A stretch of 64,000 bases of DNA from Candidatus Manganitrophus morganii (GTDB lineage: Bacteria; Nitrospirota; Nitrospiria; SBBL01; Manganitrophaceae): contig JAJHOH010000001.1 in the NCBI GenBank assembly GCA_021651055.1, positions 1,364,001 through 1,428,000 on the forward strand. The letters run 5' to 3'. The position numbers were made by a program, and so were the translations under genes. This document shows, piece by piece, positions 16,717 to 21,069 of this stretch; position 1 is the stretch's first letter; the number at the start of each line of letters is the position of its first letter. The notes under the pieces were generated by a model. That model was not told the origin of the DNA, ran no database searches, and was given only the letters and a program-made list of their open reading frames with translations.

Positions 16717-16917
16717 ATGAAATTGCATGTTGTTATTGAGAAGGATGAGGCGGGATATTATGTCGCTGAAGTTCCGGCCTTGCCGGGATGTATCTCTCAA
16801 GGAAAGACGCGTGAGGAAGCGATTGCCAATGTCAAGGAAGCAATTGAAGGTTGGCTGGAGGTGATGGAGGCCAAACGCGAGTTCGATCCGTCCAGGGTGG
16901 TCGAGGTTGTTGTCTGA
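16717..16917 (+). CDS. hicB: HicB-family antitoxin
   Basis: 66 residues with the HicB partial RNase-H-like fold: MKLHVVIEKDEAGYYVAEVP, ALPGCISQGKTREEAIANV, EAIEGWLE. HicB neutralises the HicA mRNA interferase. The protein ends without a separate DNA-binding domain, so autoregulation, if any, may need the complex. Ribosome-binding site AGGAGAA upstream; the stop overlaps the hicA start (TGATG). Antitoxin-before-toxin order is one of the two known orders for this family. Confidence 0.9.
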   Translation: MKLHVVIEKDEAGYYVAEVPALPGCISQGKTREEAIANVKEAIEGWLEVMEAKREFDPSRVVEVVV

Positions 16918-17138
16918 TGTCTCCCGCGCTCAGGCTATGTTCGGGGGCTGAGGCGGTAAATAAATTGAAACGCGCAGGATGGATCGTCTCCCGCAGACGC
17001 GGCTCTCATGTCATGATGACCAAACCTGGAAATCAATATACCCTTTCTATCCCCCAGCACGATGAGCTCGGGCCGGGCCTCTTAAGAAAACTGATCCGTC
17101 AAGCAGGAATCACCGTCGAAGAATTCAATCAGTTCTAA
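16917..17138 (+). CDS. hicA: HicA-family mRNA interferase toxin
   Basis: 73 residues. The double-stranded-RNA-binding-like HicA fold shows as LKRAGWIVSRRRGSHVMM with the catalytic histidine of the GSHV motif, followed by the IPQHDELGPGLLRKLIRQAGIT block. It cleaves mRNA when released from HicB. The start ATG overlaps the hicB stop by one base. Complete and apparently intact. The pair lies directly upstream of the SOS-type lexA cassette, but lexA has its own promoter. Confidence 0.9.
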   Translation: MSPALRLCSGAEAVNKLKRAGWIVSRRRGSHVMMTKPGNQYTLSIPQHDELGPGLLRKLIRQAGITVEEFNQF

Positions 17139-17235: not shown

Positions 17236-17265
17236 TTGACACTTTCCAATTCCTTCGGCTAGAAT
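17236..17265 (+). promoter_or_regulatory. lexA promoter, predicted to give a leaderless mRNA
   Basis: TTGACA (17236-17241), an 18-base spacer and TAGAAT (17260-17265). The expected transcription start, about 17272, is only a few bases from the ATG at 17275, so the message should have essentially no leader. No Shine-Dalgarno sequence is seen before the ATG, in keeping with that. Confidence 0.65.
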
Positions 17266-17285
17266 GGTATTCATATGGATACCAT
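17264..17285. promoter_or_regulatory. Candidate LexA operator overlapping the lexA start codon
   Basis: 22-base palindrome with the outer arms ATGGTAT / ATACCAT and a CATATG centre; 20 of 22 positions are symmetric. It spans the last base of the -10, the predicted transcription start and the start codon, an ideal place for autorepression. It matches neither CTGT-N8-ACAG nor GAAC-N4-GTTC, the best-known LexA boxes, so it would be a lineage-specific motif. Binding is inferred from position only. Confidence 0.5.
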
Positions 17286-17907
17286 CACGGCACGGCAGCA
17301 AGAAATCCTCACCTTCATCCAGCAAACGGTGGAGCAGAAAGGCTACCCCCCTTCCTTGCGTGAAATCGCAGGCCACTTCGGGATGGTCGGAACGCGGGGG
17401 GCTTTCAAACATGTCGCCGCACTGATCCGCAAAGGGCATTTGCGAAAAGGCCAGGGAGCCCGGGCGCTGGAAGTGATCTCGCAATCGCAGACAGCAAGGA
17501 CCGTCCAATCAAAAAGCGCCGGCCGCTCGGTCCCGATCTTGGGACGGGTCGCCGCCGGGCAGCCGATTCTGGCCGAGGAGAATTTACTCGGGCACCTGAC
17601 GGTCGATCCTTCGCTCGTTCGAGGAAGGGAAACGTTCCTCCTGAAGGTCAAAGGAGAGAGCATGCGTGACGCGGGAATCTTGGATGGGGATCTGGTCCTG
17701 GTCAAACGACAGGCCGATGCCGATTCCGGCGAGATCGTCGTTGCGATGGTCGAGGGGGAAGCGACGGTGAAGCGGCTGATCAAGAAAAAGAGAAGCCTGA
17801 TCCTCCAGCCCGAGAACACCGACTTTGATCCGATCGTCATCACCGAGAAAGACACCTCCTTTCAGATTCTCGGAAAAGTCGTCAGTCTCATTCGGCCGGT
17901 CGTTTGA
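17275..17907 (+). CDS. lexA: LexA repressor
   Basis: 210 residues. The N-terminal winged helix starts with ITARQQEILTFIQQTV and has PPSLREIAGHFGMVG as the recognition region. The self-cleavage site is Ala94-Gly95 (VAAGQP), and the catalytic dyad is Ser129 (GESMRD) and Lys166 (ATVKRL), so it should respond to RecA filaments by autoproteolysis and derepress damage genes. It is the first gene of a cassette with a Rad51-like protein, a small helical protein and a family B polymerase, 21 bases before the next start. The start codon is fixed by the conserved TARQQEIL region. Confidence 0.95.
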   Translation: MDTITARQQEILTFIQQTVEQKGYPPSLREIAGHFGMVGTRGAFKHVAALIRKGHLRKGQGARALEVISQSQTARTVQSKSAGRSVPILGRVAAGQPILAEENLLGHLTVDPSLVRGRETFLLKVKGESMRDAGILDGDLVLVKRQADADSGEIVVAMVEGEATVKRLIKKKRSLILQPENTDFDPIVITEKDTSFQILGKVVSLIRPVV

Positions 17908-17928
17908 TCGTAGAAGAGGAGCACGCTT

Positions 17929-18573
17929 GTGGACACGACCTACGAAATCGACGCCCCCTTCTTCTCCGGACCGCCGGTCTCCCTCATCTCCAGAATGCCG
18001 GGCGGGGTGATCTTTTTTTGCGGCGATGCCGCGCTCTGGCCGCTCGCTTCAGAAATGATCGGCTGGCGGCTGGCCCAGTCGGAGCGGGTCCTCTTTCTCG
18101 ATGGGGACAACTGCTTCAACCCATATCCGATCACAAATCTGGCGAAGCGGATCGGACACGATCCGCGCCTTTTTCTCTCGTCAATTTTTATCTCCCGTGC
18201 CGCCACCTGCCATCAGATGACCTCCCTCATCACCCGGCAGCTCGGCATTGGAATCGCGCGGCACCGTCCCCGTCTGGTGCTGCTGGCAGAGCCGCTCGCC
18301 ACCTTTTATGATGAAGCGGTCTCTTTCACCGAGAGAAAAACCCTCCTCTCCCGCACCGTATCAACCCTGGCGCGGCAGGCCCGGGAAGGAACCTGGATCG
18401 TGGTGCTGACCTCCCCTCCCCCGCCTTCGCACAAGTCGGCGTCGCTCCTTTCAATGGTGCGCAACGCGGCCGACCGTCTCTTCTCCGTCCGCACCGATGC
18501 ACAATCGATCCTCATCCGCGAAGAGACGCTCGCTATTGAAAAACGTCCGCCGCAACGAACCGGGGGGTGTTGA
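17929..18573 (+). CDS. Rad51/RadA-like RecA-fold protein with degenerate Walker A, ImuA-like role inferred
   Basis: 214 residues from a GTG start with AGAGGAG upstream. The central part follows the RecA/Rad51 core: GGVIFFCGDAALWPLASEM where a P-loop should be (no GxxxxGKT), RVLFLDGDNCFNPYPITNLAKR like the DTEGTFRPERI strand-helix of RadA, FISRAATCHQMTSLI like the RAxxxDHQM region of RadA, then a hydrophobic strand RPRLVLLAEP in the Walker B position. Loss of the P-loop lysine suggests it no longer hydrolyses ATP well. In other bacteria lexA-linked cassettes carry ImuA, a RecA-like accessory of translesion polymerases; I infer an equivalent role for this one with the downstream polymerase. It overlaps the next gene by one base. 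Confidence 0.65.
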   Translation: MDTTYEIDAPFFSGPPVSLISRMPGGVIFFCGDAALWPLASEMIGWRLAQSERVLFLDGDNCFNPYPITNLAKRIGHDPRLFLSSIFISRAATCHQMTSLITRQLGIGIARHRPRLVLLAEPLATFYDEAVSFTERKTLLSRTVSTLARQAREGTWIVVLTSPPPPSHKSASLLSMVRNAADRLFSVRTDAQSILIREETLAIEKRPPQRTGGC

Positions 18574-18872
18574 TGGGCCGCACCCTCTCCACCTTCACGC
18601 AGTTGATCGAGCAGGAACGGAGCGCTTGGCAGTCGTTTCACCGGGCGTTGCGCAAGGAGGACCAGCAATATTTCGACGCGCTTTTTCGCGCGGCGAAATA
18701 CCATGTCGCTTCCGGCAGCTACGCCTCGAAGAGCTCGCCGTTTGAAGCGATGATCGTGGCGATGTTGATCGAGTCGTACAAAAAAAATGCGCTGCTTGAA
18801 GCGCGGGTCTCCCACCTGGAAGCGTTTCTGAATAGAAGGAGGGTCGATGAAGATCACCGGCTGGATCTTTGA
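18573..18872 (+). CDS. Small helical protein of the lexA-polB cassette, function unknown
   Basis: 99 residues from ATG 18573, whose A is shared with the stop codon of the preceding gene. A GTG two codons earlier is also possible. The protein is predicted helical and charged (IEQERSAWQSFHRALRKEDQQYF, then KNALLEARVSHLEAFLNRR, a possible coiled coil at the C-terminus). No family is recognised. It overlaps the start of the polymerase gene by 26 bases, so the three proteins are translated in a coupled chain and are likely to work as one complex, perhaps with this one as adaptor. Confidence 0.7.
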   Translation: MGRTLSTFTQLIEQERSAWQSFHRALRKEDQQYFDALFRAAKYHVASGSYASKSSPFEAMIVAMLIESYKKNALLEARVSHLEAFLNRRRVDEDHRLDL

Positions 18873-21069
18873 TGTCTACGCGGTCGACGGGGGGATGCGG
18901 GTCTGGATCATCGACGCGCAAGGGAGAAAACACCGGCTGCTCGATCCCTTCTCCCCCGCTTTCTACATCGGCGGCCCTCCCGCCTCTGTCCGTCCGCTTC
19001 TGACCTTTCTCTCGCGCTTGAACCTGCCGATGGAGGTCACCCGCGCCGTGGGGATTGAGTTCTACTCGGGGAAAACGATCCCGGTCACACGGGTAAAACT
19101 TTTCAATCCAATCCACTTTACGAAGGTGGTCCGCTGGTGCACCTCCGCCGCCATCAAACCGGAAGGGAGCGGAATCTCGCTCTACAACTGCGATCTCTCC
19201 CTCCCGCAGCTCTATTTCTTCGAGCGCAAGCACTTCCCGCTGGCCTTCTGCGAGGTGGAGGTCGATCCCTCCGGAACCATTCAAACGGTCGGCTTACTCG
19301 ATTCGATCTGGCGGACCGATTACACCACCCCCCCCTTGACGACCCTGATCCTTCGAATGGAAGGGGGAAGCCTTCGCCCCGATCACACCGGTCCCCGGCG
19401 GCTGGAGGTCACGATCGATGGGCGGACCTCCTGCCTCGAAGCGGAGGATGAGGCGGGGCTGATCGACCGGTTCGACCGGATGCTGCTGCGGCACGATCCC
19501 GACCTGATTCTCTCCGAATGGGGCGATCCGTACCTCCTCCCCCAGCTGATGGCGATGGCCAAAAAGAAGCGCTTCCCGCTTCTGCTCAACCGAGAGCCGG
19601 ATACGGGGGTGATCACCCGGCGCGAACGCTCTTATTTTACATATGGCCAAGTCGTCCATCAGGCGCAAGCGCACCTGCTCCTCGGCCGCTGGCACATCGA
19701 TCTGCATAACTCTTTCTTGGTCGATCAGACCGAGCTTGAAGGGCTCTTTGAGTTCGCCCGCCTCTCGCGGATCCCGGTCCAGCAGATGGCGCGGACCACC
19801 ACCGGCACCGGAATCACCTCGATGCAGATGGCGCTGGCATTTGAGGACGGGATTCTGATCCCCTGGCGAAAGCAGGAGAGCGAGGCGTTCAAGAGCGCCG
19901 ACCAGCTGATGTTGACCGACAAAGGGGGGCTGACCTACGCCCCCAAGCTCGGCTTTCACGAAGAGGTCGCGGAGCTCGACTTCGCCTCGATGTACCCCGC
20001 GATGATGGCCCGTTACAACATCTCCCCCGAGACGATCAACTGCCCTTGCTGCCCGCACAATCTCGTTCCGGAGATCGGCCACCATCTCTGCACAAAGCGC
20101 CGCGGATTGATCCCCCGCTTCCTGGAGCCCTTTCTGGCCAAGCGCGCCGAGTACAAGCGGCTCAAGAAAACCGCGACCGATCCGGAGTGGAAGGCGCGGT
20201 ATGACGCGCGGCAGTCGGCGCTCAAGTGGGGCATGGTTACCACCTTCGGCTATCAAGGATATAAGAACGCCCGGTTCGGGAAGATCGAAGCCCACGAGGC
20301 GATCACCGCCTATGCCCGGGAGAAGCTGCTCCAGGCGAAGGAAATCGTCGAAGCGGAGGGGTTCGAGATGATCCATGCGATCGTCGACTCTCTCTGGATT
20401 AAAAAATCGGGAACGACGGAGGCCGACTATGAAGCGCTGGCCGAGCGGATCTCGAAGGCGTGCGAGATCCCGATCGCGTTTGAGGGGGTCTATCGCTGGG
20501 TCCTCTTTCCCCCCTCGAAGTCCGATCCGGAGATCGGGGTCCCCAACCGCTATCTCGGTGTCTTCCGAAACGGCGAGGTCAAGCTGCGGGGGATCGAAGC
20601 CCGCCGCGGCGACACCCCGCCGTTCATCCGGGCCGCCCAGACCGAAATGATCGAGATCCTCTCTCAGGCGAAGAATCGGGAAGCGTACGAGGCGCTCCTC
20701 CCCGAGGTCGAAGCGATCCGGGAGGCCTATCGGGAGCGGCTCAAAGCGAGGCGGGTCTCCTTCTGGGAGTTGGCGATCGCCAAGACCCTTTCGAAGTCCC
20801 CCTCGGAATATCAAAAAGACAGCCTCACGGCGATCGTCGCCAAAGAGCTCGCCGGCCGCGGGGTGCGTCTCTCCCCCGGGCAGAGCATTTCGTATGTGAT
20901 CACCGACGCCAAATCACGCGTGAAATCGGACCGCGCCCGAGCGCTCGGATTCATCGACGGGTCATGGGGATTCGACGCCGAAAAATACGAATCGCTCCTG
21001 ATCCAGGCGGCGGAGGTTCTCTTTCCAGACCCGCCCGATCGATTCGGGCAGAAAAAACTTCTGCCGTGA
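18847..21069 (+). CDS. Family B DNA polymerase of a lexA-linked cassette, exonuclease motifs degenerate
   Basis: 740 residues, close to E. coli Pol II (783). Polymerase motif A is LDFASMYPAMM with Asp378, motif B is KWGMVTTFGYQGYKNARFG with Lys460, and motif C reads HAIVDSLW with Asp514 where the family norm is YGDTDS. The first aspartate of motif C is isoleucine, but the metal-binding second aspartate is kept, so polymerisation seems possible. In the proofreading domain, by-eye alignment puts Arg in place of the Exo I aspartate (LILRMEG) and no FD in the Exo II region (DPDLILSEWGDPYLLP). The enzyme is therefore probably proofreading-deficient and error-prone. An AAGGAGGG site precedes the ATG. 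Last gene of the cassette. It might instead be a repair polymerase. Confidence 0.88.
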   Translation: MKITGWIFDVYAVDGGMRVWIIDAQGRKHRLLDPFSPAFYIGGPPASVRPLLTFLSRLNLPMEVTRAVGIEFYSGKTIPVTRVKLFNPIHFTKVVRWCTSAAIKPEGSGISLYNCDLSLPQLYFFERKHFPLAFCEVEVDPSGTIQTVGLLDSIWRTDYTTPPLTTLILRMEGGSLRPDHTGPRRLEVTIDGRTSCLEAEDEAGLIDRFDRMLLRHDPDLILSEWGDPYLLPQLMAMAKKKRFPLLLNREPDTGVITRRERSYFTYGQVVHQAQAHLLLGRWHIDLHNSFLVDQTELEGLFEFARLSRIPVQQMARTTTGTGITSMQMALAFEDGILIPWRKQESEAFKSADQLMLTDKGGLTYAPKLGFHEEVAELDFASMYPAMMARYNISPETINCPCCPHNLVPEIGHHLCTKRRGLIPRFLEPFLAKRAEYKRLKKTATDPEWKARYDARQSALKWGMVTTFGYQGYKNARFGKIEAHEAITAYAREKLLQAKEIVEAEGFEMIHAIVDSLWIKKSGTTEADYEALAERISKACEIPIAFEGVYRWVLFPPSKSDPEIGVPNRYLGVFRNGEVKLRGIEARRGDTPPFIRAAQTEMIEILSQAKNREAYEALLPEVEAIREAYRERLKARRVSFWELAIAKTLSKSPSEYQKDSLTAIVAKELAGRGVRLSPGQSISYVITDAKSRVKSDRARALGFIDGSWGFDAEKYESLLIQAAEVLFPDPPDRFGQKKLLP

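Follow-up and report, generated by a model that had tools for sequence, protein, structure and literature searches.

We found that four coupled genes in the genome of Candidatus Manganitrophus morganii, lexA-iRadA-PPB2-PolB2, make up a predicted bacterial PolB2 mutasome operon. It is of an already described kind, as iRadA, PPB2 and PolB2 show the features given by Timinskas et al. 2025 (PMC11791011), who named the bacterial PolB2 mutasome and modelled its complex. The operon is very likely (probability about 0.88) a DNA-damage-induced translesion synthesis unit of this type, in which LexA would repress the whole operon and a second cassette, of another LexA and a Hel308-like helicase, would probably be switched on as well. 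An earlier note on this DNA had proposed a LexA-controlled PolB-type mutasome; this is still the best reading, but the combination is not new (PMC4104785, PMC11791011), and the same four genes, lexA included, had been reported in Leptospirillum ferriphilum, also a member of the Nitrospirota (LFML04_0990-0993; Makarova et al. 2014, PMC4104785). The four-gene set is thus in the literature, and what appears to be undescribed is its operator, which only a single further repair unit of this genome has as well. Testable predictions on the control of the mutasome and on its need for partners follow from this operator, from the matching site at the helicase cassette, and from a sister species in which a partner-less PolB2 occurs with ImuABC.

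Layout of the operon

The features below were identified in the window, which is the whole stretch of 64,000 nucleotides that was analysed.

17236-17265, + strand: sigma70-type operon promoter, TTGACA-18-TAGAAT, 11 of 12 consensus bases
17264-17285, no strand: candidate LexA operator ATGGTATTCATATGGATACCAT, a palindrome centred on the lexA start codon
17275-17907, + strand: lexA, 210 aa, winged-helix repressor with an S24 self-cleavage domain
17929-18573, + strand: iRadA, GTG start, 214 aa, RadA/Rad51 core fold
18573-18872, + strand: PPB2 (arCOG07300-type), 99 aa, helical, with an N-terminal MGRT arm
18847-21069, + strand: PolB2, 740 aa, family B polymerase

The spacing of the genes, as claimed earlier, matched the coordinates exactly: a gap of 21 bases lies between lexA and iRadA, iRadA and PPB2 overlap by one base in TGATG, and PPB2 and PolB2 overlap by 26 bases. 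The promoter, whose -35 box begins at 17236, was the best promoter-like site of the stretch and, judged by eye, is kept in relatives from the genus and the family. Directly upstream of it, a pair of HicB antitoxin-like and HicA toxin-like genes occupies window positions 16717-17138. A reading of the locus as a defence system was rejected; PADLOC matched a homing-endonuclease model alone, overlapping the polymerase domain.

PolB2, iRadA and PPB2

PolB2 matched DNA_pol_B (PF00136, E 3e-36) and is the single family B polymerase of the genome holding the window (G000, one contig, 4.29 Mb). Comparison with PDB 5mdn revealed that the exonuclease active site has been lost by sequence, with Exo I (DxE, here DIE) changed to RME, Exo II changed from FD to YL and the Exo III region shortened, which agrees with the earlier view that this is not a normal proofreading enzyme. 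Motif C reads IVD where DTD is expected; its second Asp is retained, and so is the Asp of motif A. The same (I/M)VD was found in every PolB2 relative aligned over motif C (MVD in one), and DTD occurred only in three outgroup loci. PolB2 is under purifying selection, with dN/dS of about 0.07-0.12. An assignment to E. coli-type DNA polymerase II was rejected, as NF004421 scored only 61 bits against a cut-off of 570 and the exonuclease and DTD motifs are lost.

These features bear on what kind of polymerase PolB2 is. It might be mainly an accurate, damage-induced repair or replication-restart polymerase and not a mutator, with iRadA and PPB2 aiding its loading; its position as the sole PolB of the genome, the strong purifying selection and the accuracy that other bacterial B-family polymerases such as Pol II can have are consistent with this. 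The loss of Exo I, Exo II and the first motif C Asp argues against it, however, as does the need for the archaeal homologue, Dpo2, in targeted mutagenesis (PMC11791011), and we regard an accurate PolB2 as improbable. Damage induction of archaeal Dpo2 and its mutagenic activity (PMC11791011, PMC7390963, PMC8764526) are among the support for the translesion reading. Less probable again is a catalytically dead PolB2 whose role is purely structural or regulatory, in a cassette without a bypass function. The first motif C Asp is indeed missing in every PolB2 aligned there, but the two other Asp residues named above are retained, and a motif C substitution of this kind does not prevent Sulfolobus Dpo2 from being an active polymerase (PMC11791011, PMC8764526).

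The second gene product, iRadA, matched Rad51 weakly (PF08423, E 4e-6), and its structure model was a RadA/Rad51 core (pLDDT 85.6) with PDB matches to RAD51, DMC1 and RadA at E ~1e-11. The protein is without the N-terminal domain and without the Walker A and Walker B residues. By its sequence, the RadA-like paralogue that had been proposed for the cassette is related to archaeal RadA but has been inactivated, and is not a recombinase. By the iRadA-docking loop, PolB2 carries a D(K/R) motif, which reads TDKGG in the window; almost every relative has D(K/Q/R)GG. PPB2 starts with MGRT at 18573, and among 25 sequences M1 and G2 never varied, while R3 and T4 were nearly invariant. Its structure model was all helix, and a fold search against the PDB gave no match.

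LexA and its candidate operator

The lexA product matched TIGR00498 with 210 bits against an equivalog cut-off of 111, and the hallmarks of LexA are all there, including the DNA-binding domain, the S24 domain, the AAG cleavage motif, the GESM serine and the ATVK lysine. The sequence ATGGTATTCATATGGATACCAT at 17264-17285 comprises 22 bases, of which 20 are palindromic, with 9 of 10 half-site pairs matched (shuffle p ~0.002). It spans the last bases of the -10 box together with the lexA start codon; with 17265 as the final base of that box, lexA would be transcribed into a nearly leaderless message. Relatives have the same operator geometry with compensated changes in the arms, namely GGTAGTCATATGACTACC in G259 and GGTAGACATATGCCTACC in the sister species G003. 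The candidate LexA operator at the lexA promoter is strong as a site, and LexA would be expected to bind it.

The arms of the operator varied with residue 44 of LexA (E. coli numbering, by alignment), a residue that contacts DNA (PMC3091678). GTAT arms went with F, A or S at this position and TAG with E or Q, and LexA proteins with K, R or H had arms of other kinds; the correspondence held in 31/31 pairs. As these pairs are related by descent, the outcome of the permutation cannot be read as a probability. The operator of the imu cassette in GAC4 served as a check case: it has GTAT arms, and when the LexA was then read in the homologous frame of this assembly, which has frameshifts, residue 44 proved to be S and not E.

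Conservation across the Nitrospirota

The earlier note had suggested a search for the gene order across genomes, and the order proved to be conserved. Among 296 Nitrospirota genomes, the polymerase was matched in 54 and was of the PolB2 type in 41; a separate group of 13 weak matches was left out, and the three of these that were inspected all had DTD. We read 47 PolB2 loci, with usable upstream sequence in 41, and the order repressor-iRadA-PPB2-PolB2 was present in 33 of these 41, counting two whose lexA is truncated where the contig stops (L022 and L056). The operon genes co-diverge with PolB2 (Mantel r 0.85-0.93 on sequence distances, 30 operons), which together with the conserved order indicates that the four-gene arrangement is not due to chance. 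Two order-level relatives carry two copies of the PolB2 operon per genome (L052/L053 in G259, L022/L056 in G164), and the close relative G001 has a partial, diverged PolB2 remnant of 46% identity at a second site (L010, G001:C1:1063964-1064338).

Departures from the common order were found at several loci. At L088 and L089, iRadA and PPB2 are fused and lexA is missing; L085 has PolB2 with PPB2 as its sole partner; and L050, L072, L079 and L087 have PolB2 without a linked iRadA or PPB2 detected in the loci read. One further locus, L092, is broken. Since some loci keep PolB2 with PPB2 alone or with neither linked partner, some species may do without iRadA and PPB2 or have them unlinked to PolB2. 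The two loci without lexA would also suit the view that lexA is a mere neighbour and that the downstream genes lie outside its control. Against this stand a strong promoter and a strong candidate operator ahead of lexA, the short gap and the two overlaps, and the finding that each of the 33 full loci has lexA or another S24 repressor as its first gene; we therefore consider it very unlikely that the genes escape the repressor.

Repressor exchange, partner loss and ImuABC

In eight full Nitrospiraceae operons (L061-L064, L066, L067, L070 and L084), and also in the broken L092, the lexA slot is taken by a protein with an XRE helix-turn-helix and an S24 domain. These XRE-S24 repressors sit behind a palindrome of their own over the promoter, TGTAACCATTGGTTACA or TGTAACATTTTGTGACA. 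The LexA DNA-binding domain was absent from both of the XRE-S24 genomes that were checked, G014 and G093.

In the sister species G003 (L050, G003:C11), iRadA and PPB2 are gone from the locus, and a remnant of ~22 codons lies between lexA and PolB2. No iRadA was found in the G003 genome at E values up to 1. The partner loss may also be a misassembly. The same genome carries lexA-imuA-imuB-dnaE2 (L115, G003:C15) behind GGTAGACGTATGTCTACC, an operator of the type found at the PolB2 operon. GAC4 (G005, CP114561) holds both PolB2 and imu cassettes, and therefore the two are not exclusive. In the GAC4 assembly, frameshifts break PolB2, the imu cassette and recA (L051, L116), which most likely reflects sequencing error rather than biology.

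ImuB-level matches were found in ~3/296 genomes, with none anywhere else in the G000 genome. The cassette contains no Y-family protein, as had been stated, and one Y-family gene is present elsewhere in the genome. The earlier note had also viewed the operon as one in which the ImuABC slots are refilled by a RadA-like protein and PolB. We found that it is a separate system but not ImuABC with swapped parts, as there is no ImuB or DnaE2 in the cassette, its three proteins match an archaeal-type set, and ImuABC forms a separate cassette in the sister species.

A second LexA cassette with a Hel308-like helicase

When the genome was scanned for the operator core GTATnCAnnTGnATAC with at most one mismatch, a setting at which looser sites would be missed, G000 had it in two places, the PolB2 operon promoter and that of a second lexA. 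The latter gene lies at G000:C1:2684061 and is followed by a Hel308-like helicase of 836 aa (L144, G000:C1:2680500-2687500), and the cassette has a near-perfect 30-bp palindrome, CCGGATAGTATTCATTTGAATACTATCCGG. In G001 both GTATnCAnnTGnATAC sites were exact and two one-mismatch sites were found in addition. G000 encodes three LexA proteins, and the third has a different box, GTCTACnnnnGTAGAC, which occurred exactly only at its own promoter. Because there are three, the pairing of each LexA with a site is a presumed one.

No similar palindrome was seen upstream of recA when five genomes were inspected by eye. With the core common to just these two promoters and no such box at recA, it is probable that the PolB2 set and the Hel308-like helicase are regulated together and separately from recA, and any tie between the PolB2 operon and the general SOS response would be an indirect one. 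Close relatives of the helicase were confined to the Manganitrophus-type genus in our sample (54-100% identity; next best <=35%). A broader reading, which we hold at even odds, combines two things: a genus-private SOS branch of two cassettes, the PolB2 mutasome and the Hel308-like helicase, each with its own LexA paralogue, under one common GTATnCAnnTGnATAC operator not found elsewhere in the genome and apart from recA control; and a phylum-wide re-wiring of the polymerase set to several operator types and an XRE-S24 repressor family.

Proposed mechanism and related systems

We propose that LexA, seated on the candidate palindrome that covers the tail of the -10 box as well as the start codon of lexA itself, represses the entire operon. 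RecA-triggered self-cleavage is established for the LexA family; RecA on single-stranded DNA would bring about cleavage of LexA, and lexA, iRadA, PPB2 and PolB2 would then be made together. The second LexA, with its near-identical operator at the head of the helicase gene, suggests that both cassettes would probably be switched on together. Following the published modelling (PMC11791011), each PolB2 would be bound by a single iRadA and a trimer of PPB2, giving the heteropentamer PolB2-iRadA-PPB2(3), in which the MGRT arm of PPB2 would reach between PolB2, iRadA and DNA, and iRadA would dock onto the PolB2 loop as a RadA subunit does onto the next RadA. PolB2, without proofreading, may extend mismatched or lesion-opposed primer ends and so give mutagenic bypass, as shown for archaeal Dpo2. 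For this organism we infer LexA binding, induction, complex formation and mutagenic bypass from the sequences.

The closest known system is the Leptospirillum ferriphilum operon, which likewise has four genes, an inactivated RadA, an arCOG07300-type small protein and a lost motif C Asp; the genus differs, and the operator, its twin at the Hel308 cassette and the partner loss in a sister species are added here. In the literature searched, which included few subscription papers, we found no description of the operator, the helicase-cassette twin, the repressor swap or the partner loss, no paper on lexA paired with Hel308, and no bacterial PolB2 mutasome with an experimental test. The archaeal set of PolB2/Dpo2, iRadA and arCOG07300 in Sulfolobus islandicus is homologous in its three proteins and damage-inducible, but at archaeal loci it is Orc1/Cdc6-type genes and not lexA that are enriched, and the gene order varies among archaea. 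According to PMC4104785 and PMC11791011, the bacterial PolB2 cassette derived from archaea.

Two other mutasomes resemble the operon in organization. The lexA-imuA-imuB-dnaE2 cassette is also LexA-led, with a RecA-fold accessory protein, a low-fidelity polymerase and, in the sister species, a like-type operator, whereas its polymerase is of the non-homologous C family and it has a Y-family-like ImuB and no PPB2. Pol V (UmuD'2C-RecA) similarly joins a polymerase to a RecA-fold subunit and a small multimer with an N-terminal arm reaching the active site (PMC11791011), but its polymerase belongs to the Y-family, and UmuD' is a cleaved S24 protein, which PPB2 is not.

Judged by eye only, the C-terminus of PolB2 is clamp-motif-like, with QKKLLP in the window and QQQLELLP in the PolB2 of G003. 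Also by eye, clamp-motif-like iRadA C-termini of the (K/R)LF type were seen in L065, L068, L069, L071, L073 and L077, and their presence there, against the QKKLLP of the window's own PolB2, agrees with the published either-or pattern.
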